In this document: positions 21,978 to 33,144 of the stretch, piece after piece
Numbering within the stretch: position 1 is the stretch's first letter
Layout of the letters: the number at the start of each line of letters is the position of its first letter
Assembly: GCF_001984575.1 (NCBI RefSeq)
Contig: NZ_LZNS01000001.1
Span: 1,568,754-1,632,753, forward strand
Direction of reading: 5' to 3'
DNA from: Streptomyces sp. MP131-18
GTDB taxonomy: Bacteria; Actinomycetota; Actinomycetes; Streptomycetales; Streptomycetaceae
Length of the DNA: 64,000 bases
The notes under the pieces: generated by a model
Database searches by the model: none
What the model was told of the DNA's origin: nothing
What the model saw: the letters and a program-made list of their open reading frames with translations, nothing else
Made by a program: the position numbers and the translations under genes

Positions 21978-23343
21978 GTGTTCCTGACGATATCCGCGGC
22001 CGGCGACGCCGGCCGCCCCGCCACAGACCTGGGCTTCCTGCTGCACAAACACCCGGAAAAGGCCCAGGAGTTCAGCACGTCAGCAGGCACGGCCCACGTC
22101 TTCTACCCGGCGGCGGACGAACGGCGCTGCACCGTGGCCCTGCTGCTCGATGTCGACCCGGTCGCACTCGTGCGCGGGCGCGGGCGCGGGGCCGCGCCCG
22201 ACGCCACGCTCGCCCAGTACGTGAACGACCGCCCCTACGCGGCCTCCTCACTGCTCGCGGTCGCGCTCGGCCAGGTGTTCCGCACCGCGCTGCGCGGCGA
22301 CTGCGCGGCCCGCCCCGAGCTGCCGGGGCGGGCGCTGCCGCTGCGCGTCGAGGTGCCCGCGCTCCCCGCGCGCGGCGGTGCGGACGTGGTGCGGCGGCTG
22401 TTCGAGCCGCTGGGCTGGGCGGTGACGGCGGTGCCGGTCGCGCTGGACGAGACGTTCCCCGAATGGGGCGACTCCCGGTATCTGCGGCTGACGCTGACCG
22501 GCACGGCCACGCTGTCGGCCGCGCTGCGCCAGCTGTACGTGCTGCTGCCGGTGCTCGACGCGGCCAAGCACTACTGGATCACGGCGGAAGAGGTGGACAA
22601 GCTGCTGCGGGCCGGGGACGGCTGGCTGGCTGGCCGGGCACCCGGAGCACAGGCTGATCGTCGACCGCTACCTGGCCCACCGCACCGCCCTGACCAGGCA
22701 GGCGCTGACGCGGCTCGAACTGGCGCGGCTCGCCGAGCTGGACGACGGCGCCGTCGAGGAGCTGGACAACGCCGTCGCCGACGGCCAGGACGGCACCGCG
22801 GACGAGGACCCGGCGGCCGGGGAGGGCGCCGGGGCCCCGGTGCCGCTCGCCGTCCAGCGGCGCACCGCGGTCCTCGACGCGCTGCGGGCGAGCGGCGCGA
22901 GCCGCGTGCTCGATCTCGGCTGCGGCGGCGGGCAGTTGCTGGGCGCGCTGCTGGCGGAGAAACGGCTGACGGAGGTCGTCGGCATGGACGTCTCGGCGCG
23001 CGCCCTGGCCGCGGCCCACCGGCGGCTCGGCGTGGACCGCATGCCGGAGCGGCAGCGCGCGCGGCTCCGGCTGATCCAGGGCTCGCTGGTGTACACCGAC
23101 GCACGCCTGGAGGGCTACGACGCGGCCGTGCTGTGCGAGGTGATCGAGCACGTGGACCCGCCGCGGCTGCCCGCGCTCGCCCACGCCGTGTTCGGCGCGG
23201 CCCGGCCCGGGACGGTGATCGTCACCACGCCGAACGCCGAGTACAACAGCCGCTGGGAGACGCTGCCCGCCGGGCAGTTCCGGCACACCGACCACCGTTC
23301 GAGTGGACCCGGGCCCAGTTCGCCGCCTGGGCCACCGAGGCGC
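21978..23343 (+). pseudogene. hen1: 3'-terminal RNA ribose 2'-O-methyltransferase Hen1, frameshifted and truncated
   Basis: Hen1 methylates the 3'-terminal ribose during bacterial RNA repair with Pnkp. The recognisable protein is split over frames: an N-terminal domain from GTG 21978 (FLTISAAGDAGRPATDLGFLL...) to DGWLAG near 22634; then, after a shift, GHPEHRLIVDRYLAHR onward with the methyltransferase motifs VLDLGCGGGQLL and CEVIEHVDPPRL (metal ligands E, E, H) and TPNAEYN; then at about 23298 a second shift into FEWTRAQFAAWATE. The first break is explained by one extra GGCT unit at 22620-22631, the second by one missing base. The last 30-40 residues of normal Hen1 are absent and the sequence runs directly into a Pnkp fragment. 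Confidence 0.82.
22620..22631 (+). repeat. hen1: GGCT tetranucleotide repeat causing the hen1 frameshift
   Basis: Three tandem GGCT units followed by GGCC. Removing one unit restores the frame and gives DGWLAGHPEHRL, the expected protein. Either slipped-strand expansion or a sequencing/assembly error. Confidence 0.75.
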
Positions 23344-23998
23344 GCTCGGCGCGGCGGCGGAGCGCGGTGTCGACGTGGCGTCCCTCGCCGCGCGGCAGCG
23401 GGAACGCGCCGCGGACGCCGAGGCCTTCACGGCGGCGTACCGCACGTACTGCCGGCCCACGGGCGAGGGGCTCGACGGCGTGCGCATCGCGCCGTTCCAG
23501 CTCCTGGCCTCGGAGGGGCGTTCGCTCGCCGCGCTGCCGCACGACGAGCAGCTGGCGCTGATCGACCGCGTGGTGGAGCGTGACCCGCTGTTGTCCACGA
23601 CCCGGCGGCTGGCGGTGGACACCGGGGACGAGGCGTCGGTGGCCGAGGGCGTGCGCTGGTGGCTCGGCCTGACCGCGGACGGCGGCGAGGGCATGGTCGT
23701 CAAGCCGCGCGCGGCGTACGTGCGGGGCGCGGACGGGCGGCTGGTCCAGCCGGGCATCAAGTGCCGCGGCCGGGAGTACCTGCGGATCGTCTACGGCCCC
23801 GAGTACACGCGCCCGGAGAACCTTGGGCGCCTGCGGCAGCGGAGCCTGGGCCACAAGCGGTCGCTGGCCCTGCGCGAGTACGCGCTGGGTCTTGAGGCGC
23901 TGGACCGGGTCGCGGCCGGCGAGCCGGTGTGGCGCGTGCACGAGGCAGTGTTCGCCGTACTGGCGCTGGAGTCCGAGCCGGTGGACCCGCGCCTGTAG
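23344..23998 (+). pseudogene. pnkp: C-terminal remnant of polynucleotide kinase-phosphatase Pnkp
   Basis: About 215 residues in a third reading frame that match only the end of the adenylyltransferase (ligase) domain of bacterial Pnkp: RIAPFQLLASEG, the nucleotidyltransferase motif GGEGMVVKP, GIKCRGREYLRIVYGPEYT and the C-terminal RQRSLGHKRSLALREYALGLEALD. The kinase and phosphatase domains and the adenylated lysine of the ligase domain, normally some 600 residues upstream, are gone. The fragment follows the Hen1 piece with no intergenic DNA, so one deletion joined the two genes. Functional RNA repair from this locus is very unlikely. Confidence 0.82.
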
Positions 23999-24072
23999 CC
24001 GCGAACGGCCGGGGTCCCGGCGTGTATTGACGGGTGTGCGGCGGTTCTGACAGCGTGCCGCGGGGGGCGAGC

Positions 24073-24753
24073 ATGAGTCTTTTCGGGCAAGACCCCTTCC
24101 TGGACGCGCTGGCGCGCGAGGACCGCCGCGCGCTCCTCGCCGCGGGCGCACCCCGGAGCTACGCGCCGGGCGATGTCATGGTGCGCGAGCGTGACACCAC
24201 CACCTTCGTGCTGGCGATCCTCAGCGGCTGGTCCGTCGTCTCGGTCGGCACCGAACGCGGGACCCGGCTGATCCTCGCGCTGCGCGGCGCGGGCGAGGTG
24301 GTCGGCGACCTGGCGGCCGTGGACCAGCATCCGCGCAGCGCCACGGTCACCGCGCTCGGCCCGGTGGAGTGCGTGGTGTTGCCGGGCGAGCGGTTCCGTC
24401 GGTTCCTCTCCGCCCGCCCGGCCGCGACGCAGCTGATCATGCGCCAGCTGTCGGCGCGGCTGCGCAGCGCGGACGTGGAACGGCGTTCGCTGGCCTCGGA
24501 GCCGGTGCTGCAACGGCTGGCGGCACGCCTGGTCGAGTTGGTCGAACGGGCGGGGCGGCAGGCGCCCGAGGGGGTCGTCGTCGACCTGCCGCTCCCCCAG
24601 CACGACTTGGCCGCCGCGGTCGGCGCGACCAGGGAGGCGGTCGCCAAGGCGCTGCGGCTGCTGCGCGGTCAGGGGCTCGTGGAGACGGGCACCCGGCGGC
24701 TGGTGGTGAAGGACATCGGCGTGCTGCGCCTGCTGGCCGCGGGCCGCGACTGA
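24073..24753 (+). CDS. Crp/Fnr-family transcriptional regulator
   Basis: 226 residues. Residues 8-125 form a cyclic-nucleotide-binding beta-roll (LAGAPRSYAPGDVMVRERDTT-like start, then GEVVGDLAAVDQHPRSATVTAL), and residues 150-220 the winged helix-turn-helix (LPLPQHDLAAAVGATREAVAKALRLLRGQGLVE). The phosphate-cassette Arg/Ser seen in true cAMP binders is not clear, so the ligand is uncertain. The ATG at 24073 is chosen because the upstream in-frame start at 24034 lies before a GGGGGG ribosome site. It lies between the decayed RNA-repair locus and the cyclase-like module on the same strand. Confidence 0.85.
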   Translation: MSLFGQDPFLDALAREDRRALLAAGAPRSYAPGDVMVRERDTTTFVLAILSGWSVVSVGTERGTRLILALRGAGEVVGDLAAVDQHPRSATVTALGPVECVVLPGERFRRFLSARPAATQLIMRQLSARLRSADVERRSLASEPVLQRLAARLVELVERAGRQAPEGVVVDLPLPQHDLAAAVGATREAVAKALRLLRGQGLVETGTRRLVVKDIGVLRLLAAGRD

Positions 24754-24943
24754 CCGCGCGCGGGGGGGCGCACGAACCAAGCGGGGGCGCGCGCGACGGG
24801 GGCGCGCGATGGTGGCGTGCGCCCCGAATATCACCTCAATCGGCGCCGGTTGTGTAAACGGCTACATCGCGCCCTCCGCATCCGCGCCACGCTGTTTCCC
24901 GAACGACCCACTCACCGGGCGGCGAAGGCGGCAGGGGGACAGC

Positions 24944-25759
24944 GTGGCCAGTACGGAAGAACGGGCCGTGTACCGGCTCGTGGTCTGCGGGGACGTCAAG
25001 GATTCCGGACGGTTGAATCTCGGCGCGAAACTGCGGATGCGCGAAAGTCTCTACCAGGTGTTCCAGGACGCGCTCGACGCCGTCGACGTGGGACCGGAGC
25101 AGGTGGACGTCATCGATCGGGGCGACGGGCTGCTGCTGTCGTTCGAGCCGGGGGTGCCGCCCGCGCTGATCGCGGGCGTGTGGCTCGAGGAGGTGCGGCA
25201 GGGCCTGATCGAGCGCAGGCCCGTGCTGCACGACCGGCTGCGGATGCGGCTCGCCATGCACCAGGGCCCGGTCTCGCACGACGGCAGGGGCCCCGTCGGC
25301 CGGGCCGTCGACCTCGCCTGCCGGCTGTGCGACTGCGATCCGGCGCGGCGCGTCCTCGACGCCTCCGACAGCGATCTGGTGCTGGTCGTCTCCGACCCCT
25401 TCCACGGCGCGGTGATCGCGGACAGCGTCGGCGAGCGGTTCGTCGAGCCGGAGGCGTACCGGCCGTTCCGCGTCTCGGTGAAGGAGACGGACGAGATCGC
25501 CTGGTTCCGCGTTCCCGGGCTGCCGGTGCCGCCTGACCTGACGGGGGGAGGCGGCACCGGCACCGCCCCCGGCGGGGCGCCGCCCGCGCCGGAAGGGCGC
25601 GAGCCCGGCGCGGCGGGCGGCGATACGGAACGCGACCTGTCGCGGTACCGCATCGACGTGCACGACGGGGACAGCACCGTGGTGTCGGCCCGCACCATCG
25701 AGGGCGGGCTGACCATCAAGCACGGCAACCGCTCGCGCCGCGACGGGCAGCAGCAGTGA
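24944..25759 (+). CDS. class III nucleotidyl-cyclase-fold protein with C-terminal amyloid-like motif
   Basis: 271 residues. The N-terminal 190 show the cyclase homology pattern: VVCGDVKDSG (first metal-Asp position), DVIDRGDGLLLSF (second Asp), RLAMHQGP and GRAVDLACRL; the transition-state Asn of the usual NLAAR is Asp here, so activity is uncertain. A Gly/Pro-rich linker (about 200-230) leads to a C-terminal segment VHDGDSTVVSARTIEGG (from about residue 239) that resembles bacterial amyloid signalling sequences. The GTG start has AGGGGGA upstream. Its stop overlaps the start of the next gene by four bases. Neither family name nor function is established. Confidence 0.72.
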   Translation: MASTEERAVYRLVVCGDVKDSGRLNLGAKLRMRESLYQVFQDALDAVDVGPEQVDVIDRGDGLLLSFEPGVPPALIAGVWLEEVRQGLIERRPVLHDRLRMRLAMHQGPVSHDGRGPVGRAVDLACRLCDCDPARRVLDASDSDLVLVVSDPFHGAVIADSVGERFVEPEAYRPFRVSVKETDEIAWFRVPGLPVPPDLTGGGGTGTAPGGAPPAPEGREPGAAGGDTERDLSRYRIDVHDGDSTVVSARTIEGGLTIKHGNRSRRDGQQQ

Positions 25760-28068
25760 GCGAGGACGGACAGGACGCGGACGACGCGAAGGGCAGACCC
25801 CCCGAGGGCGGCGGTCCGAAGGGCGGCGCCAAGGACGAGGGGAAGGACGACGGCGGCCGGGAGGGCAAGGAGAACCGGTTCTCCGGTGCGCACGCCGGCC
25901 CGCGGGACGGCGCACACGGCGCGGGCGCCGTGCACGCCGTGCGCCAGGCACGCGCCAACTACACCACCGTGCACGGGAGCAGCACGCTGGTCGACAGCTC
26001 CCGCATCGACCGGGTACAGGTCGGCGACACCCACCACTATCACTACGGGCCGCGCACCGCCCCCCTGGTGACCGGCGCGGTGACCACCGAGGAACTGCGG
26101 CGCCTGCGCCTGGTGTTCGCGCCGCCGCCCGAGTACCCGGCGCTGCTCGACCACCTCCGCGGGCGCCGCGTGCTCGCGCTGTGCGGCGACCCGGGCAGCG
26201 GGCGCGGCTGCACGGCGGTGTCCCTCCTGGACGAGGTGGCACACGGCGCGGTGGAGCGCATGGACCCGCGCACCGAACTGTCCGCGCTGTCCGGCGACGC
26301 CATCCGGGAGGGCCACGGCTACGCCCTCGAACTGGCCGGCGGCACCGGCCGCCCCGCCGAGCTGCACCTGGACCGGCTGGGTGCCCTGCTGGCCGAGCGC
26401 AACGCCCATCTGGTCCTGGTCGTGGACGCCGGGGACCTGGGCGACGCGTTGCTGCGCGGCCGGTACGGAAGGCTGTTCCTGCCGCCCCCGCCGCAGGAGG
26501 TGCTGAAGCGGCATGTGGCCTCGCTGGTGAAGGGCGAGGAACGGCGCACGCACGCCCTGGGCGTCGCGGAGCGCGACGACGTGCGCGGCGCACTCGGTCT
26601 CACGCGCCTGCGCCCGCGCGAGGCGGTCGCGCTGGCCGGGCTCCTGGCCCGGCACGCCGGCGGCGACCTGGACGACGCGGGCCTGCTCGCCGAGTGCACG
26701 CGCTTCGCGCCCCGGCAGGCCGCGCTGTGGTTCGCCGGTGCGGGCCGGGGCGCGACCCTGCGCGCGGCGCTGCCGACGCTGCGGCCCGCGGCGCTGCGCC
26801 TGGGCCTTGCGGTGTACGACGGTGCCCCCTTCAGCGTGGCCGCCGAGGCCGCCGAGGCGCTGACCTGGGAGCTGGCCACGACCCTCGCCCCGGGGCGGAC
26901 GCCGGGCCGGCCGCTGTTCACCGAGGATCTGCGGGCCCGGCTGACCGCGGCCCGCGCCGGGCTCGGCACGGGCGAGGTCTCCCTCGGCGACGACCAGGTG
27001 CCGGTGCGCACCGTGCGGTTCGAGGGGCGGGGCCTGCCCTGGGCGGTGCTCTCCCACGTCTGGGAGGAGCACCACAACGCCCGCGGCCCGATGTGCCGGT
27101 GGCTGAACGCCCAGTGCGACGACCCACGCCCACTGGCCTGGGTGCCGGCCGCGCTCGCGGCGGGCGCGCTGGCCACCCTGGACTTTCCGTTCGCGGAGGC
27201 CGAACTGCTGATGCCGCTGGCCGGCTCCGAGTCCGGCACCCAGCGGCTCGCCGCCGCCACCGCCCTGGCCCAGACCGCCCGCACCCCGCGACTGCGGCCC
27301 GTCGTCGCGTCCCTGGTGCGGGGGTGGGCCGAGGACGGCAACGAGCTGCTGCGCAGCACGGCCGCCCTGGTCCACGGCTACGGAACGGTGGCCGGTTCCG
27401 TGGCCCGTTCGCTGGACGCGCTCGGCCCGCTCTCCGAGCCGGGGGACGACGCGGCGCCCGAGGCCGCCTGGGCGCAGTTGCAGGACGTGTCCTACAGCGT
27501 GGTGCGGCTGGCCGCGGGTGCCGAACCGGACACCGTGCTGCGGCGGCTCGGCCAGTGGCTCGGGGACCGGCGGATCGGCCGCAGGGACCTCGCGCTGCTG
27601 AGCATCATCCAGCTGACGGGAAGCCGCACCTGGCAGCTGTGGGGTCTGGACGAGCAGCCGGAGCTCGAAGCCCACCAGAACTGGCCGCTGACGGCCGCGC
27701 TGATCGCGGCCGGACCCGAGCGGGCACCGCTGCTCGCCGATCTGGTGTGGGCCGGGCTCGACACCGCCAGGTCGCGGGACGCGCTGCTCGTGGGCTTCAG
27801 GTCGTGGATGCGCCGGTCGGCGCGGAACGCGGAGCTGCTCGACGCCCTCTGCGCGTTCCTGCCGCTGCTGGTGAGCGGCCCGGCCGACGCCGCACGGCTG
27901 CGGGCCCTGGTGACGCGGCTCGCCCGCGACCCGGACGAGCCGATCCCGCCCGCGACGGTCGAACGGCTCGGCGCGGCCCTGGGCGCCGGGCCAGGGCCGC
28001 GCCCCGGCGGCCGGGACACTCCCGCCGCCCCCACACCGAGCACGCGCAGAAGGGAATCGACCGTATGA
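25756..28068 (+). CDS. large P-loop NTPase-like protein of unknown function
   Basis: 770 residues. Residues 1-60 are charged, Gly-rich and disordered. VHGSSTLVDSSRIDRVQVG (72-90) is a beta-prone segment similar to the end of the preceding protein. A Walker A-like GDPGSGRG (144-151) has Arg where Lys is usual, and LVLVVDAGD (219-227) fits Walker B. The rest is helical, Leu/Ala-rich and repeat-like (about 400-740), as in the sensor half of STAND/NLR-type ATPases. It is coupled to both neighbours by GTGA and ATGA overlaps. I read it as an NLR-like regulator; the degenerate P-loop leaves ATP hydrolysis in doubt. Confidence 0.7.
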   Translation: MSEDGQDADDAKGRPPEGGGPKGGAKDEGKDDGGREGKENRFSGAHAGPRDGAHGAGAVHAVRQARANYTTVHGSSTLVDSSRIDRVQVGDTHHYHYGPRTAPLVTGAVTTEELRRLRLVFAPPPEYPALLDHLRGRRVLALCGDPGSGRGCTAVSLLDEVAHGAVERMDPRTELSALSGDAIREGHGYALELAGGTGRPAELHLDRLGALLAERNAHLVLVVDAGDLGDALLRGRYGRLFLPPPPQEVLKRHVASLVKGEERRTHALGVAERDDVRGALGLTRLRPREAVALAGLLARHAGGDLDDAGLLAECTRFAPRQAALWFAGAGRGATLRAALPTLRPAALRLGLAVYDGAPFSVAAEAAEALTWELATTLAPGRTPGRPLFTEDLRARLTAARAGLGTGEVSLGDDQVPVRTVRFEGRGLPWAVLSHVWEEHHNARGPMCRWLNAQCDDPRPLAWVPAALAAGALATLDFPFAEAELLMPLAGSESGTQRLAAATALAQTARTPRLRPVVASLVRGWAEDGNELLRSTAALVHGYGTVAGSVARSLDALGPLSEPGDDAAPEAAWAQLQDVSYSVVRLAAGAEPDTVLRRLGQWLGDRRIGRRDLALLSIIQLTGSRTWQLWGLDEQPELEAHQNWPLTAALIAAGPERAPLLADLVWAGLDTARSRDALLVGFRSWMRRSARNAELLDALCAFLPLLVSGPADAARLRALVTRLARDPDEPIPPATVERLGAALGAGPGPRPGGRDTPAAPTPSTRRRESTV

Positions 28069-29234
28069 ACGCGCACACCTGGAATCAGCCGCAACCGCCT
28101 CAGCACCTGCCGCAGCCGAGACCGATCCACCCACCGCAGGCCCGGCCCGGTTTCGCGGCCCAGCGGCCCGCCATGCCCGCCCCACCCACCACACCCGCCG
28201 CACCGGCCCCGCCCGTGCAGGAGCTCGCGGGCCCGTTCCTGCGGGAGTACGCGCCGTCCTGGCCGTTCCGGCACCCGAGCGCGCAGGTGGCCTCGGTGCT
28301 GTTCTTCCGCGGCAGACAGCCGCGCGTGGTCCTGCCCGAGGGACAGGAGGGCGTCTGGCCGCTGCGGCTGCTGCGCCGCCCCTACGCGGTGTTCGAGATA
28401 CAACTGGGCACGCACACGCTGTCGTTCCACATGCGGCTGCCGGCCGCGGACAGCGTCTCGTTCTTCCCCGTGCGGGTGGGGGTGGCGTGGCGCGTGGCGG
28501 ACCCGCTGCGAGTGGCCAGGGAGCAGGTGTCGGACGTGGCCAAGCTGCTGGCGCCGCTGTGGGAGGAGCGGCTGAAGGACATCTCGCGGCGGTTCCCGAT
28601 CACCCAGGCCGAGCAGGTGGACACGGCGGTGCGGCAGGAGCTGAGCGGCAGTGACCTGGGCACCCGGTACGGCATCGAGCTGGAGGTGTTCGTCGACATC
28701 ACGCCGGACGAGCTGACGATCAAGCACGCCGGCGAGGTGCTGAGGGCCCAGCACGGCCAGGCCATGGAGCGGCTGGAACAGCAGCTTCAGCTCATGAAGA
28801 ACGAACACGAGCGGACCGTCGTCCGCGAGTGGGCGACGCACTTCCAGCAGGCGATGTCGCAGGGCGACACGGCGGTGATGGCCGAGCTGATGGCGCGCCA
28901 CCGCGACGACATCCCCGGCATCAGGAGCATGCTGAAGAACGAGCAGCTGACGGCCAGACGGGACGGCATGGAGCTGCTGTCCCGGCTGATCGAGGGCGGC
29001 ATGCTGGAGTCCTGGCAGCTCGGGGACCAGGCGCAGGCCGTGGTCGACTTCGTGCGGCAGGGCACGCAGCGGATGATCGACACCGCGGCGCGCCGGACGA
29101 CGCCCGACCCCGGGGTGGCGGGCGGCGAACTGCCCGAGGCGCGGCGTGAGGTGTTCTGGCAGACGCAGCAGGAGACGCAGGAGACCGAGGACCCCGCGGA
29201 CGGCGGGGGGCCGGGCCGCAGAATGGACCCATGA
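28065..29234 (+). CDS. band-7/SPFH-like protein
   Basis: 389 residues. The first 50 are Pro/Gln-rich (PQPPQHLPQPRPIHPPQ). Residues 60-230 resemble an SPFH/band-7 domain: FFRGRQPRVVLPEGQEGVWPL, the strand VGVAWRVADPLRVAREQV and IELEVFVDITPDEL. A helical region with heptad character follows (EVLRAQHGQAMERLEQQLQLMKNE, 235-330), then an acidic tail. No clear membrane span or signal peptide is seen, so it may be a peripheral scaffold. The ATG overlaps the NTPase stop (ATGA), and its own stop overlaps the arginine deiminase start the same way. Confidence 0.68.
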   Translation: MNAHTWNQPQPPQHLPQPRPIHPPQARPGFAAQRPAMPAPPTTPAAPAPPVQELAGPFLREYAPSWPFRHPSAQVASVLFFRGRQPRVVLPEGQEGVWPLRLLRRPYAVFEIQLGTHTLSFHMRLPAADSVSFFPVRVGVAWRVADPLRVAREQVSDVAKLLAPLWEERLKDISRRFPITQAEQVDTAVRQELSGSDLGTRYGIELEVFVDITPDELTIKHAGEVLRAQHGQAMERLEQQLQLMKNEHERTVVREWATHFQQAMSQGDTAVMAELMARHRDDIPGIRSMLKNEQLTARRDGMELLSRLIEGGMLESWQLGDQAQAVVDFVRQGTQRMIDTAARRTTPDPGVAGGELPEARREVFWQTQQETQETEDPADGGGPGRRMDP

Positions 29235-30463
29235 CCTTCCATGTCGACTCCGAGACCGGGCGGCTGCGCCGAGTGATCCTCCACCGCCCCGGCCTCGAAC
29301 TGAAACGGCTCACGCCGACGAACAAGGACGAGCTGCTCTTCGACGACGTGCTGTGGGTGCGGCGGGCCCAGCAGGAGCACGACATCTTCGCCGAGCTGCT
29401 GCGGTCCCGCGGCGTCGACGTGCGGCTGTTCGGGGACCTGCTGACCGAGAGCCTGGACGTGCCCGCCGCGCGGGCCCTGGTCCTCGACCGCGTCTTCGAC
29501 GAGCGCGAGTACGGTCCGCTGGCCACGGACCGGCTGCGGGGGGTGTTCGACGGGCTGCCGACGGCGGAGCTGGCCGAGGTGCTGATCGGCGGCATGACGA
29601 AGCGGGAGTACCTGGAGCGGTACGAGGAGCCGGCCTCGGTGCGGTTCCACGTGATGGACCTGGACGATTTCCTGCTCAATCCGCTGCCCAACCACCTCTT
29701 CGCGCGGGACACCTCGGCCTGGGTGTACGACGGGGTGGCGATCAACGCGATGCGCTGGCCCGCCAGGCACCGGGAAAGTGTGCACTTCGAGGCCGTGTAC
29801 GGCCACCACCCGCTGTTCGCCGGCCCCGGCGCCGGTGACTTCCACATCTGGTCGGAGGGACTCGGTGCGCACCCGTCCACCATCGAGGGCGGGGACGTGC
29901 TGGTCATCGGCAACGGCGCGGTGCTGGTGGGGCTGAGCGAGCGGACCACGCCGCAGGCGGTGGAGCTGCTGGCCCGCCGGCTGTTCGCGGCCGGCTCGGC
30001 GCGCGTGATCGTTGCGCTGGACATGCCGAAGCGGCGGGCGTTCATGCACCTGGACACGGTGCTGACGATGGTCGACGGGGAGACGTTCACCCAGTACGCG
30101 GGGCTCGGGATGCTGCGCTCGTACACGATCCAGCCGGGCTCCGGGGACGAGGAGCTGAAGGTCACCGACCACCCGCCGGAGCACATGCACCGGGCCATCG
30201 CCGCCGCGCTCGGCCTCGGTGGCATCCGGGTGCTGGCCCCGGTCCAGGACGTGCACTCGGCCGAACGGGAGCAGTGGGACGACGGTTGCAACGTGCTGGC
30301 GGTCGAACCGGGCGTGGTGGTGGCCTACGAGCGGACCGTCACCGCGAACACGCATCTGCGCGAGCACGGCTTCGAGGTGCTGGAGATCCCGGGCAGCGAG
30401 CTGGGACGCGGCCGGGGCGGCCCGCGGTGCATGAGCTGTCCCGTGGAACGGGACGCCGTATGA
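29231..30463 (+). CDS. arcA: arginine deiminase
   Basis: Hydrolyses arginine to citrulline and ammonia. The 410 residues contain the N-terminal RVILHRPGLELKRLTP, FARDTSAWV, the EGGDVL segment, HLDTVLTMVD with the catalytic His, and the C-terminal nucleophile in GGPRCMSCPVERD. Full length. The ATG overlaps the stop of the band-7-like gene (ATGA), and no Shine-Dalgarno precedes it, so translation probably depends on coupling to the upstream module. Ornithine carbamoyltransferase, which consumes its citrulline, follows after 94 bases with its own promoter. Cytoplasmic. Confidence 0.94.
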   Translation: MTFHVDSETGRLRRVILHRPGLELKRLTPTNKDELLFDDVLWVRRAQQEHDIFAELLRSRGVDVRLFGDLLTESLDVPAARALVLDRVFDEREYGPLATDRLRGVFDGLPTAELAEVLIGGMTKREYLERYEEPASVRFHVMDLDDFLLNPLPNHLFARDTSAWVYDGVAINAMRWPARHRESVHFEAVYGHHPLFAGPGAGDFHIWSEGLGAHPSTIEGGDVLVIGNGAVLVGLSERTTPQAVELLARRLFAAGSARVIVALDMPKRRAFMHLDTVLTMVDGETFTQYAGLGMLRSYTIQPGSGDEELKVTDHPPEHMHRAIAAALGLGGIRVLAPVQDVHSAEREQWDDGCNVLAVEPGVVVAYERTVTANTHLREHGFEVLEIPGSELGRGRGGPRCMSCPVERDAV

Positions 30464-30483
30464 GCCTGTACCGCCGTCCGCCC

Positions 30484-30522
30484 CTGGCGCGATCTGCATA
30501 CTCATGTAGAATTCCGCATACT
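30484..30522 (+). promoter_or_regulatory. argF promoter with GCATACT direct repeat
   Basis: A perfect streptomycete -10 TAGAAT (30507-30512) lies 17 bases after a weak -35 CTGGCG (30484-30489). GCATACT occurs at 30496-30502 and 30516-30522, exactly 20 bases apart, flanking the -10. ArgR boxes in actinobacteria are AT-rich paired sites over arg promoters, so this is a candidate ArgR operator. Confidence 0.5.
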
Positions 30523-30557
30523 ATTTCAACAAGATCCGCGCGACGTACGGAGTCGAT

Positions 30558-31556
30558 ATGGCGACAGAGCTTTCGGGCCGCCACCTGCTCAAGGAGCTCG
30601 ACCTCACCCCCGAGGAGTTCCGCTCGCTCATCGCCCTGGCCACGGAGCTGAAGGCGGCCAAGCAGTCGGGCAGCGAAACCAGGGCCCTGACGGGCAAACA
30701 CATCGCGCTGGTCTTCGAGAAGAGTTCGACGCGCACGCGCTGCGCGTTCGAGGTGGCCGCCGCGGACCAGGGCGCGGCAACCACCTGCCTCGACCCCTCC
30801 GGCTCGCACATCGGCCGCAAGGAGTCGGCACGCGACACGGCCCGCGTGCTCGGCCGCATGTTCGACGCGATCCAGTACCGGGGCAGCGCCCAGCGCACCG
30901 TGGAGGAGCTGGCCGCGCACGCGGGCGTTCCCGTCTACAACGGACTGACGGACGAGTGGCACCCGACCCAGATGCTGGCCGACGTGCTGACCATGGCCGA
31001 GCACGGGCCGGGGCCGCTGGAGCGGACGGCCTTCGCCTACCTCGGCGACGCCCGCAACAACATGGGGAACTCCTACCTGGTCACCGGCGCTCTGCTCGGC
31101 ATGGACGTGCGCATCGCAGCCCCCGCGCAACTGTGGCCGGACGCCGCGGTGCAGGCGGAGGCCAGGCGCCTGGCCGGGGAAACGGGTGCGCGGATCACGC
31201 TCACCGAGGACGTGGCCGAGGGCGTGCACGGCGCCGACTTCGTCGCCACCGATGTGTGGGTCTCCCTCGGCGAGCCCCAGGAGGTATGGGACGAACGGAT
31301 CGCGCTGCTGCGCCCCTACGCGGTGACCGGGGACGTGCTGCGCGCCACCGGCAACCCGGACGTGAAGTTTCTGCACTGCCTCCCCGCGTTCCACGACCTG
31401 GGCACCGAGGTCGGCCGGGAGATCCACGCGCGGCACGGCCTGGACTCGCTCGAAGTCACCGACGAGGTCTTCGAGTCCGAGCGGTCGATCGTCTTCGATC
31501 AGGCGGAGAACCGGCTGCACACCATCAAGGCCCTGATGGTCGCGACCCTCGGCTGA
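30558..31556 (+). CDS. argF: ornithine carbamoyltransferase
   Basis: Transfers carbamoyl phosphate to ornithine, or runs backwards in the arginine deiminase pathway. 332 residues with the carbamoyl-phosphate motif SSTRTR, HPTQ and the ornithine loop HCLPAFHD, plus [19 protein letters not shown] precedes the ATG by five bases. It has its own promoter but follows arcA closely. The enzyme may be catabolic (arcB) or biosynthetic (argF); position next to arcA allows either, and the rest of the arginine cluster is not in the window. Confidence 0.93.
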
Positions 31557-31865
31557 CCAGGCAAACGCCGCCCCCGCGGGCGCCGGGTGCGTGCCGGGTG
31601 CGTGCCGGGCGCGTGCCAGGGGGCCGTCGTCCGAACGTTCCGGGTGCGCGCACATCGTCCGGCGCATACGTCAGTTCACGTGAAGGACGCGTTCCGGTCG
31701 CACACGGGATCTACATTACCTGCGCGGGGCGGCCACGGACTTGGGGGGCCGCGGCGGACAGAGGGCTTGGCACCGGCCGCTCCTCGTGCACACCTCGCGG
31801 GTGCGCCATGCGGCTCCCGAAGCCGCCGCCCGCCCACGAACCGACCGAACGAAGGACGTCATTCC
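31557..31865. other. 309-base intergenic region argF / secreted protein
   Basis: Starts with a short repeat in which GTGCCGGG/GTGCGTGCCGG recurs at about 10-base spacing (31585-31615). It holds a perfect palindrome TTCACGTGAA (31675-31684) and a possible -10 TACATT (31712-31717), plausible control elements for the downstream secreted protein. No gene seen. Confidence 0.45.
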
Positions 31866-32510
31866 GTGCGAAGAAAAGCCGCTGTACTCCTGTCCCTCTG
31901 CGGCCTGCTGGCCGTGTCGACGCTCGGCGCCACGGCCGCCTCCGGGGCGCCGCAGACCGACGACGACGCGCCCGCGCCGGCCGGCTGGGAACGCGTCGAC
32001 ACGCAGCTCCTCAACGAACTGCTCGCCGACGACGGCGCCGCCCCGCTCAACGCCTCGGCCGACGAGCCGGAGGAGCTGCCCTGGGCCGTCCAGTCCGTGA
32101 ACACCGGCCTGTTCGTCGCCTCGGAGCAGCGCTACGCCGAGCCGTACACGGGCGTGCTGCGCGCCCGTTCCGACTCGGTCGGCGGCGGCTGGGAGCAGTT
32201 CGACATCTACTTCGACGATGCCTCGGAGACCGTCACGCTGACCTCGCGGGCGAACGGCCTGAACGTGGCCACCGAGCGCAACTTCACGGGCGCGTCGAAC
32301 GGAGTGCTGCGCGCCCGCTCCGAGGGCGTCGGCAGCTGGGAGCGGTTCGTCCTCTACTACCACGACGACCTCCAGACCTTCGCCTTCCGCTCCGTGGTCA
32401 ACGACCTCTTCGTCGCCACGGAGCAGAACAACACCGGCTCGCTCCAGAACGTGCTGCGGGCCCGCTCCGACTGGATCAACGGCTCCTGGGAGCAGTTCTA
32501 CCTTTTCTGA
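31866..32510 (+). CDS. secreted three-repeat (fascin-like beta-trefoil) protein
   Basis: 214 residues. A Sec signal peptide (RRKAAVLLSLCGLLAVSTLGATAASGAP) fixes the GTG start. After an acidic linker come three clear repeats of about 45 residues: AVQSVNTGLFVASEQ..., TLTSRANGLNVATER... and AFRSVVNDLFVATEQ..., each followed by VLRARSD/E and WE(Q/R)F. Three repeats of this length with 'NGLFVATE' turns match fascin/ricin-type beta-trefoils. Secreted, possibly carbohydrate- or actin-fold-binding; no catalytic residues visible. GAAGGA lies upstream of the start. Confidence 0.78.
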   Translation: MRRKAAVLLSLCGLLAVSTLGATAASGAPQTDDDAPAPAGWERVDTQLLNELLADDGAAPLNASADEPEELPWAVQSVNTGLFVASEQRYAEPYTGVLRARSDSVGGGWEQFDIYFDDASETVTLTSRANGLNVATERNFTGASNGVLRARSEGVGSWERFVLYYHDDLQTFAFRSVVNDLFVATEQNNTGSLQNVLRARSDWINGSWEQFYLF

Positions 32511-32531
32511 GGCGGACGGCGGACGGCCGCC

Positions 32532-32560
32532 CGCGGCGGCGCCGAGGGGGCGCCGCCGCG
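32532..32560. terminator. bidirectional terminator hairpin
   Basis: CGCGGCGGCGCC (32532-32543) pairs perfectly with GGCGCCGCCGCG (32549-32560) around a 5-base loop, between the convergent secreted-protein and isochorismatase-like genes. Confidence 0.8.
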
Positions 32561-32598
32561 CACACGGCCCAACGGGCCGAACGGGCCGGACGGCCCGG

Positions 32599-33144
32599 TC
32601 ACCGGGCGCCGCGGGCACTGCCCGCGGCGCCGTTCCCGTCGAACGTCACCGTTTCCGGGGCCGCGACCACCACGCCCGCCGCCCGCAGCGTCGCCTCGAT
32701 CTCGCGCGGCACACCGGCCCGCAGGCTGGCGTGCGCGCCACGCACCAGTACCACCCGGTGGCCGCGGTCGAGCGCGGCGAGCGCGGTGGCCCGCACCACC
32801 GACTCGCTGTGCATCCCGGCCACCACCACCTCGGCCCCGACCGGGACCAGGCCGGCCAGGCCGCTGCCGGCGAAGGCATCCGGCCGGGTCCTGTGCACGA
32901 CGGGCTCGCCGTCGAGCGGGCGGAGGAGCGGCTCGTGCCCGCCCGGAGGTCCGGCGGCGCCGGTGTCCTCCCCGGCACCGGCCTCGCGCACATGGATGAC
33001 GACCGCGCCCGCGGTGCGCGCCCGCCGCAGCAGGTCCCCGATCACGGCGGAGACGGAGGAGAGGGCCGGACCACCGGGCGCGGGCGTGGGGGCGGGGTCC
33101 GACGGGGTCATGGATAAGTCGAGAAGAAGCAGCACAGGGGCCAT
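32599..33144 (-). CDS. isochorismatase-like protein without catalytic residues
   Basis: 181 residues with the fold order of cysteine hydrolases: LLLLDLSM at the start (Asp retained), VVIHVRE, then VVHRTRPDAF where the family has a catalytic Lys, and VVVAGMHSESVVRATALAALDRG where the family has the nucleophile Cys (SE-x-CV). Here these are Arg and Val, and the whole protein contains no cysteine. It is therefore probably a pseudoenzyme, perhaps a binding protein. The ATG at 33144 starts MAPVLLLLDLS; further upstream in-frame sequence is not protein-like. Confidence 0.75.
   Translation of the reverse strand: MAPVLLLLDLSMTPSDPAPTPAPGGPALSSVSAVIGDLLRRARTAGAVVIHVREAGAGEDTGAAGPPGGHEPLLRPLDGEPVVHRTRPDAFAGSGLAGLVPVGAEVVVAGMHSESVVRATALAALDRGHRVVLVRGAHASLRAGVPREIEATLRAAGVVVAAPETVTFDGNGAAGSARGAR

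Follow-up and report, generated by a model that had tools for sequence, protein, structure and literature searches.

A cyclase, NLR-like and SPFH gene module with its own predicted Crp-type operator in Streptomyces, and a copy without PycTM in Streptomyces sp. MP131-18

The region analysed here is a stretch of 64,000 nucleotides from Streptomyces sp. MP131-18 (contig NZ_LZNS01000001.1, our C1, positions 1568754-1632753, within a genome of 7.96 Mb), hereafter the window, which carries four overlapping genes encoding a nucleotide cyclase-like protein (gene A), an NLR-like protein with a degenerate P-loop NTPase-fold domain (gene B), an SPFH/band-7 protein (gene C) and arginine deiminase (arcA). 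A preliminary description, made from the sequence alone, had proposed genes A to C as a candidate new system coupled to arginine deiminase. We found that A-B-C is a real module that is larger than three genes, comprising a Crp/Fnr regulator, a class III cyclase, the NLR-like protein, the SPFH protein and usually PycTM, and we consider it reasonably probable that the window holds an effector-less copy of this conserved Streptomyces module (in the order Crp-operator-cyclase-NLR-like-SPFH-PycTM), which would work as an NLR-gated, Pycsar-like system. Thus, the three genes proposed earlier do form a real, co-travelling unit, while its extent had been underestimated, the Crp gene, the operator, the usual PycTM gene and the matched tails of cyclase and NLR-like protein having gone unnoticed. 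The coordinates and reading frames of the four overlapping genes were confirmed (A/B GTGA, B/C ATGA, C/arcA ATGA), and the locus is laid out as follows.

24073..24753, plus strand: Crp/Fnr-type regulator gene, the first gene of the module (Pfam PF00027, 8e-18, and PF13545, 1.3e-15)
24851..24866, plus strand: predicted Crp-type operator TGTGTAAACGGCTACA (TGT-N10-ACA), exact, 5' of the cyclase gene
24944..25759, plus strand: gene A, class III nucleotide cyclase-like by family profile, with a low-complexity C-terminal tail; GTG start
25646..25726, plus strand: cyclase tail motif, residues 235-261, matched to the NLR-like tail at family level
25756..28068, plus strand: gene B, NLR-like, degenerate P-loop NTPase-fold domain plus HEAT-like repeats; GTG start
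25957..26049, plus strand: tail motif at the N-terminus of the NLR-like protein (residues 68-98), where the model has pLDDT <50
28065..29234, plus strand: gene C, SPFH/band-7 fold protein by structure model matches; ATG start
29201..29230, plus strand: approximate deletion junction where PycTM would have been lost, with homology to a relative's arcA leader inside the SPFH frame (blastn against L123)
29231..30463, plus strand: arcA, arginine deiminase, native neighbour (PF02274, 3.5e-109); ATG start
30558..31556, plus strand: arcB/OTC, native neighbour of arcA (Pfam PF00185 and PF02729)

Spread of the module and its predicted operator

Two samples of loci (our identifiers, L) underlie the counts. 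Sample 1 consists of stretches fetched around gene C matches, about 8 kb to each side, and includes three modules on short contigs; sample 2, the named loci, came from a clade I alignment scan and holds the best 80 of 135 relatives with flanks of about 8-10 kb. Five loci are common to both, an arcA beyond the flanks is out of view, and the relatives' genes were called with a codon-usage caller that sets some starts too short and thereby inflates some gaps. Gene C was matched in 31 of 61 Streptomyces genomes, and 27 of the 34 fetched stretches, from 26 genomes, carry a homologue of gene B (the other seven are without one), so that with the window's own genome counted the module is present in 27 of the 61. 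Outside Streptomyces it is rare, being found in at least 2 of 198 genera, a lower bound because the phylum search scored three candidates per genome; five of the 80 named loci bear names other than Streptomyces. Plasmid searches returned three matches to gene C at 31-35% identity and no match for gene B, and an early contig scan using gene C alone gave no match. The module is common in Streptomyces and apparently unnamed, as no description of the five-gene combination was found in the portions of the open-licence PMC literature consulted, and it may be described elsewhere.

Among the 80 named loci, 12 are deletion forms with a GAP1-like gene and arcA behind the NTPase gene. In the other 68, the cyclase gene lies directly upstream of the NTPase gene in 66 (the remaining two are contig ends) and the SPFH gene directly downstream of it in 67. 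Gaps of -4 separate cyclase and NTPase genes in 53 of 66 loci, NTPase and SPFH genes in 50 of 67, and SPFH and PycTM genes in 28 of 54; since the first two gaps recur across relatives, the overlaps seen in the window are beyond chance. In the named loci the three genes therefore move together with conserved overlaps, and the outcome that the preliminary description had set against its own proposal, housekeeping genes found apart from each other or overlaps not conserved in relatives, did not occur. Its notion that other genomes might carry the module with different downstream genes was also borne out, as in sample 1 the module is followed by an M48 peptidase gene, by vWA, Tubulin_2 and other genes, or by unrelated genes. 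The vWA, Tubulin_2 and GTPase genes were considered as part of the core and rejected, because 21 of the 68 non-deletion loci have another gene, not vWA, behind PycTM.

Three arrangements deserve separate mention. In the 12 deletion loci (L137, L144, L150, L161, L164-L167, L172, L176, L180 and L193) the NTPase gene is directly 5' of the GAP1-like gene and arcA and no cyclase, SPFH or PycTM gene was called; four of them retain short cyclase remnants and L193 begins within the NTPase gene. A long island (L106-L109, L034-L036 and L038) has the order module, vWA, Tubulin_2, unknown gene, DO-GTPase2/GAP1-like and arcA, mostly with pnkp upstream, and is reminiscent of the GAP1-N2 tubulin systems described from actinobacteria (Kaur et al. 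2020). Finally, a divergent clade of nine loci (L047-L053, L055 and L061) is located between rpsL-rpsG and rpoC-rpoB, which is unusual for an accessory system; an M48 peptidase gene lies downstream in this clade, the neighbours having been identified with Pfam for L047 only.

The module's first gene encodes a protein with cNMP-binding and HTH_Crp domains, in which the Arg-Ser of the phosphate cassette is conserved in the alignment. A same-strand Crp homologue lies 5' of the cyclase gene in 23 of the 27 sample-1 modules (three of the others are at contig ends and L060 is without one), and the Crp gene is second upstream of the NTPase gene in 62 of the 68 non-deletion named loci, two others being contig ends. 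The predicted operator next to it, TGTGTAAACGGCTACA (16 bp), would be expected by chance 0.02 times per window, and no second exact match occurs in the genome; two further genomic matches with two mismatches are at noise level (seven in a backward control). Of 92 loci scanned, the site lies 5' of the cyclase gene with at most one mismatch in 77, at most two in 79 and at most three in 81 (72, 74 and 76 of 87 distinct loci once duplicates were removed), and elsewhere in the 1,827,600 bases of those loci there was no match with up to two mismatches. Coding constraint does not explain this conservation, because, where a Crp gene was called, the operator is wholly past its stop codon in 37 of 77 sites (34 of 72 once duplicates were removed), the rest overlapping the stop. 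Eight of 10 clade II loci have a variant, TGTG-N8-CACA, some 100 bp upstream, and it is absent elsewhere in their 179 kb. All 11 of the cyclase-less deletion loci that were scanned retain a site when one extra free position is allowed. The predicted site resembles the Crp consensus, TGTGA-N6-TCACA, and adjoins the Crp gene, whose product would be expected to act on the operator before the cyclase gene.

Cyclase, NLR-like and SPFH proteins and their matched tails

No Pfam or NCBIfam model matches gene A, B or C above cut-off, and PADLOC matches none of the three. Profile and fold comparisons nevertheless agree with the signalling- or conflict-type domains named in the preliminary description, in the form of a cyclase profile, an SPFH fold and NLR-like fold matches. 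A 27-member family profile of gene A identifies a class III cyclase when compared with the PDB (best E 1.9e-6), with the metal-binding aspartates D17 and D61 kept in 25 of 26 and 26 of 27 members, respectively, and R127 in 27 of 27. All three residues are present in the window protein, which looks able to make cyclic nucleotides.

The structure model of gene B (pLDDT 81.5, pTM 0.78) has a P-loop domain followed by superstructure-forming repeats, the arrangement of NLR/STAND proteins. Its best Foldseek matches include SAMD9, Avs5, NOD2 and PP2A-A, and VIA-align matched residues of about 100-320 to AAA+ domains and also returned HEAT proteins, at Z of about 10-12, although for helical repeats VIA matches below Z 13 possibly reflect just a common arrangement. 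Because the TM-scores are low (see below) and such Z values may reflect a common arrangement, we use 'NLR-like' as a statement about architecture. The intact Walker A motif of NLR/STAND proteins, GxxxxGK[ST], is missing: 25 of 26 members, the window included, have Arg in place of its Lys in an alignment from which 2 of 28 homologues (L032 and L046) had been dropped. The NLR-like protein is probably an ATPase-dead sensor.

For gene C, Foldseek ranks 1-35 are SPFH-family entries (best E 4.3e-7; the title of rank 30 is silent on this), and VIA matched the model to prohibitin over 210 aligned residues (Z 10.6, root-mean-square deviation 8.7). The model itself is middling (pLDDT 77, pTM 0.51), whole-model TM-scores are 0.18-0.33 and the Pfam Band_7 match is weak and below cut-off; as modelled, gene C has the SPFH fold. 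Its family alignment (A2) was made after dropping 3 of 28 homologues.

The C-terminus of the cyclase and the N-terminus of the NLR-like protein encoded at the same locus share similar short motifs in which Gly, Asn, His and Gln are often abundant, and in L056 the two tails are identical over 25 residues. In a first test on 33 dereplicated loci, own pairs scored 62.8 versus 38.7 for permuted pairs, a value reached in 0 of 20,000 permutations. With 60-residue tails from 41 dereplicated loci, loci without SPFH having been left out, own pairs scored 53.3 against 32.3 for permuted pairs (standard deviation 1.8; z 11.7; 0 of 10,000), and the excess holds within clade I (z 6.2) and clade II (z 5.4), each with 0 of 10,000 permutations. 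Controls with SPFH tails or shuffled tails gave z of -1.5 to 2.2, and together with the clade-wise tests they argue that residual relatedness between loci is not the cause of the matching. SPFH tails were also considered as a third motif partner and discarded, as they gave no clear signal (z -1.5 to 1.6). Matching between a receptor N-terminus and the C-terminus of an effector encoded next to it, as in BASS-type signalling, is therefore present at the level of the family but short of significance for the window pair by itself; by analogy with NLR amyloid signalling, whose pattern the matched tails follow, the two proteins may make an amyloid-type contact.

PycTM and its loss from the window copy

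In sample 1, a gene of about 105-200 residues lies directly behind gene C in 17 of 27 modules, and all of these match PF18967 (PycTM); counting one elsewhere in L060, 18 of 18 genes compared with this profile match it. Two further modules end at a contig border after gene C. Among the 68 non-deletion named loci, PycTM is next after SPFH in 54 and four are contig ends, so that 56 of 64 informative loci have it: the 54 plus L127, in which the SPFH gene was not called, and L142. In L142 (4641-6842), SPFH and PycTM share one frame of 733 residues, either a real fusion or a frameshift of the draft assembly.

The window itself has no PycTM match, by tblastn in 22001-33000 or by profile, so that the effector expected in a Pycsar operon is present in most relatives and absent here (PycTIR was not searched for). 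The nearest named relative, L123 from Streptomyces sp. ACA25, has the order Crp-cyclase-NTPase-SPFH-PycTM-arcA-arcB. Homology of the window to the L123 SPFH protein extends to residue 383 of 389, blastn homology to the L123 arcA region begins 30 bases 5' of arcA, and the last ~10 codons of the window SPFH gene align to the arcA leader of this relative. These alignments indicate that the window copy lost PycTM by deletion, which explains the ATGA overlap between its SPFH and arcA genes.

Two solo PycTM genes occur elsewhere in the window genome (L205, 7462-7917, on G000:C2, and L206, 8569-9009, on G000:C3), on small contigs among neighbours that by eye resemble FtsK/Tra mobile-element genes; they are possible effectors in trans, and no evidence links either to the window locus.

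Candidate mechanism, competing readings and the arcA neighbourhood

In the mechanism that we favour, the NLR-like protein would sense an insult, either phage or envelope stress, and assemble, whereupon its N-terminal motif would template the matching C-terminal motif of the cyclase and the clustered cyclase would make a cyclic mononucleotide. In intact modules this messenger would open PycTM in the membrane, with SPFH as membrane scaffold, leading to growth arrest or cell death, while the Crp protein would read the same messenger and tune the operon through the dedicated operator before the cyclase gene. In the window, deletion of PycTM would have brought arcA, of which a single copy was found in the genome, right up to the SPFH gene. 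The fullest version of this proposal, in which a pseudo-NTPase NLR-like protein switches the cyclase via diversifying heterotypic amyloid-type motifs in an immune pathway with SPFH, a PycTM pore and Crp feedback, the window having lost the effector and captured arcA, is offered tentatively, at somewhat below even chances.

Parts of this pathway have counterparts in published systems. Pycsar is described as a cyclase with PycTM or PycTIR, for which triggering by direct binding of phage components or by a pH change has been proposed (PMC11224242). The module resembles it in having, in most relatives, a class III cyclase with metal-binding Asp and PycTM in one operon; it differs in that the PycC models match its cyclase poorly, that the window copy is without PycTM, and that it adds the NLR-like and SPFH proteins, the Crp regulator and a dedicated predicted operator. 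If it belongs to Pycsar, its cyclase would be expected to make cCMP or cUMP. Amyloid motif pairs between NLR N-termini and effector C-termini have been described, and the BASS motifs comprise 10 families (Dyrka et al. 2020, as told in PMC12261475). The module shares the matching motifs between the NLR-like N-terminus and the C-terminus of an effector encoded by the adjacent gene, whereas its effector is a cyclase and its P-loop is degenerate. Like Avs/STAND proteins, gene B has a P-loop domain and helical repeats, with Avs5 and NOD2 among its best fold matches; unlike them, it has a degenerate P-loop, no recognised fused effector and low TM-scores.

Cyclase-Band 7 fusions and Crp-linked conflict systems have also been reported (Kaur et al. 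2020, PMC7159879). The VMAP/vWA ternary systems of that paper likewise couple a cNMP cyclase to SPFH/Band 7 in actinobacterial conflict systems, but there both are fused into a single vWA protein that has MoxR partners, whereas the module has separate genes and an NLR-like protein. As in the GAP1-N2 GTPase/tubulin/vWA systems of the same paper, many relatives have vWA, Tubulin_2 and more genes behind the module, and one locus compared with Pfam has a DO-GTPase2-like gene below cut-off; however, the five-gene module also stands alone (the 21 loci without vWA), and the GAP1 identity of the relatives' genes was not confirmed by Pfam. None of the window's called genes matched models of the relatives' vWA, Tubulin_2, GAP1-like and DO-GTPase2-like genes, so the window does not qualify as a GAP1-N2 system. 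If the favoured mechanism is right, one operon would unite motif templating by NLRs with cyclic mononucleotide signalling, both themes of bacterial immunity, with a candidate dedicated sensor seemingly wired to the cyclase by matching tails, which would bear on how Pycsar is triggered, and with a possible transcriptional read-out of the messenger via Crp and one operator.

Several observations weigh against this mechanism. PycTM is missing behind gene C in 8 of 25 informative sample-1 loci and, by tblastn, from 8 of 64 informative named loci, as well as from the window; of the eight in sample 1, the six compared by tblastn (L032, L035, L039, L047, L050 and L051) gave no match, and neither did L175 (the L043 locus). 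The cyclase of L035 is without both metal Asp residues, two PADLOC PycC models, at E up to 0.01, each match just 1 of 27 family members, weakly (E 0.005-0.008), and the window cyclase has no PADLOC PycC match. For the gene B model, none of the best 18 Foldseek matches has a TM-score above 0.26 (by query length), and HEAT repeats match many unrelated proteins. As to the tails, in just 10 of 41 loci does the partner from the same locus rank first, and z rises to 2.2 in one shuffled control (172 of 10,000). Taken by itself, the window pair lacks significance (1509 of 20,000 shuffles), its own partner ranking 38th of 93 and, in the reverse direction, 17th.

The window copy may also be a non-functional relic whose remaining genes are decaying, which is possible, though we are inclined to doubt it, and which is compatible with the favoured mechanism for the family. 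The absence of PycTM, the broken hen1-pnkp locus and the weak tail-motif match of the window fit such decay, whereas all remaining reading frames are intact, the cyclase keeps its metal Asp and Arg residues and the operator is exact.

A non-defence role is the next candidate, with the same parts adjusting membrane state or morphogenesis in multicellular streptomycetes as a developmental or envelope-stress operon. The nine fetched loci of one clade at the same rpsL-rpsG/rpoC-rpoB site, the presence of the module in 27 of 61 genomes of the genus along with its rarity outside, and the failure of PADLOC to match A, B or C all suit this idea, which we regard as unlikely but well worth keeping in view; it is opposed by the several insertion sites and repeated losses, and by diversifying matched motifs, an NLR-like architecture and a PycTM effector that are typical of conflict systems.

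Less probable still is that duplication of DNA or gene conversion in the operon produced the similarity of the cyclase and NLR-like tails, without any functional contact. The L054 tails share 0.89 DNA identity and L049 uses the same codon at 12 of 13 identical residues, so that some of the matching may stem from copying of DNA inside the operon, and the L054 case counts against the favoured mechanism. In the ten other clade II pairs, however, DNA identity along the aligned stretch is 0.51-0.76 and synonymous codons differ, for instance at 12 of 44 identical residues in L056 and 12 of 33 in L048; the matching also holds when clade I is taken by itself.

The proposal that the module acts through depletion of arginine, with arginine deiminase as its output, takes its support from the 4-base overlap of the window arcA with gene C and from this being the genome's only copy found (a single match at E up to 1e-30), and is very improbable in light of the arcA loci elsewhere. 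arcA is a core gene, matched in 217 of 219 genomes. Of 20 arcA loci fetched, four had been chosen for a same-strand module about 14-18 kb upstream; among the remaining 16, which have no adjoining module, pnkp is next upstream in nine (64-390 bp), one or two small genes stand between pnkp and arcA in four, and three are without pnkp, while arcB directly follows arcA in 17 of the 20. No arcA lies in the stretches, reaching about 8 kb to either side, that were fetched around the 27 other modules, although in four of those genomes it is 14-18 kb further downstream, and L123, the sole non-deletion named locus with arcA inside the fetched flank, has it behind PycTM. Being near-universal and placed behind PycTM in L123, arcA is not a module component and appears from these gene orders to be a native neighbour at a pnkp-arcA-arcB locus that serves as an insertion site of the module. 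The link to arginine is thus accidental, and we rejected both the coupling and the depletion output of the preliminary description. In the window strain arcA is now probably co-expressed with the module and, as the one arcA found in the genome lies directly behind the SPFH gene, its expression may depend on the module.

The decayed RNA-repair locus that the preliminary description had noted nearby is real, hen1-pnkp being broken at 21978-23995: the reading frame of Hen1 shifts at about residue 217, and the match to Pnkp is limited to residues 623-842. The arcA product, in turn, also matches the NCBIfam models for arginine deiminase, NF002381 above its cut-off and TIGR01078 slightly below.

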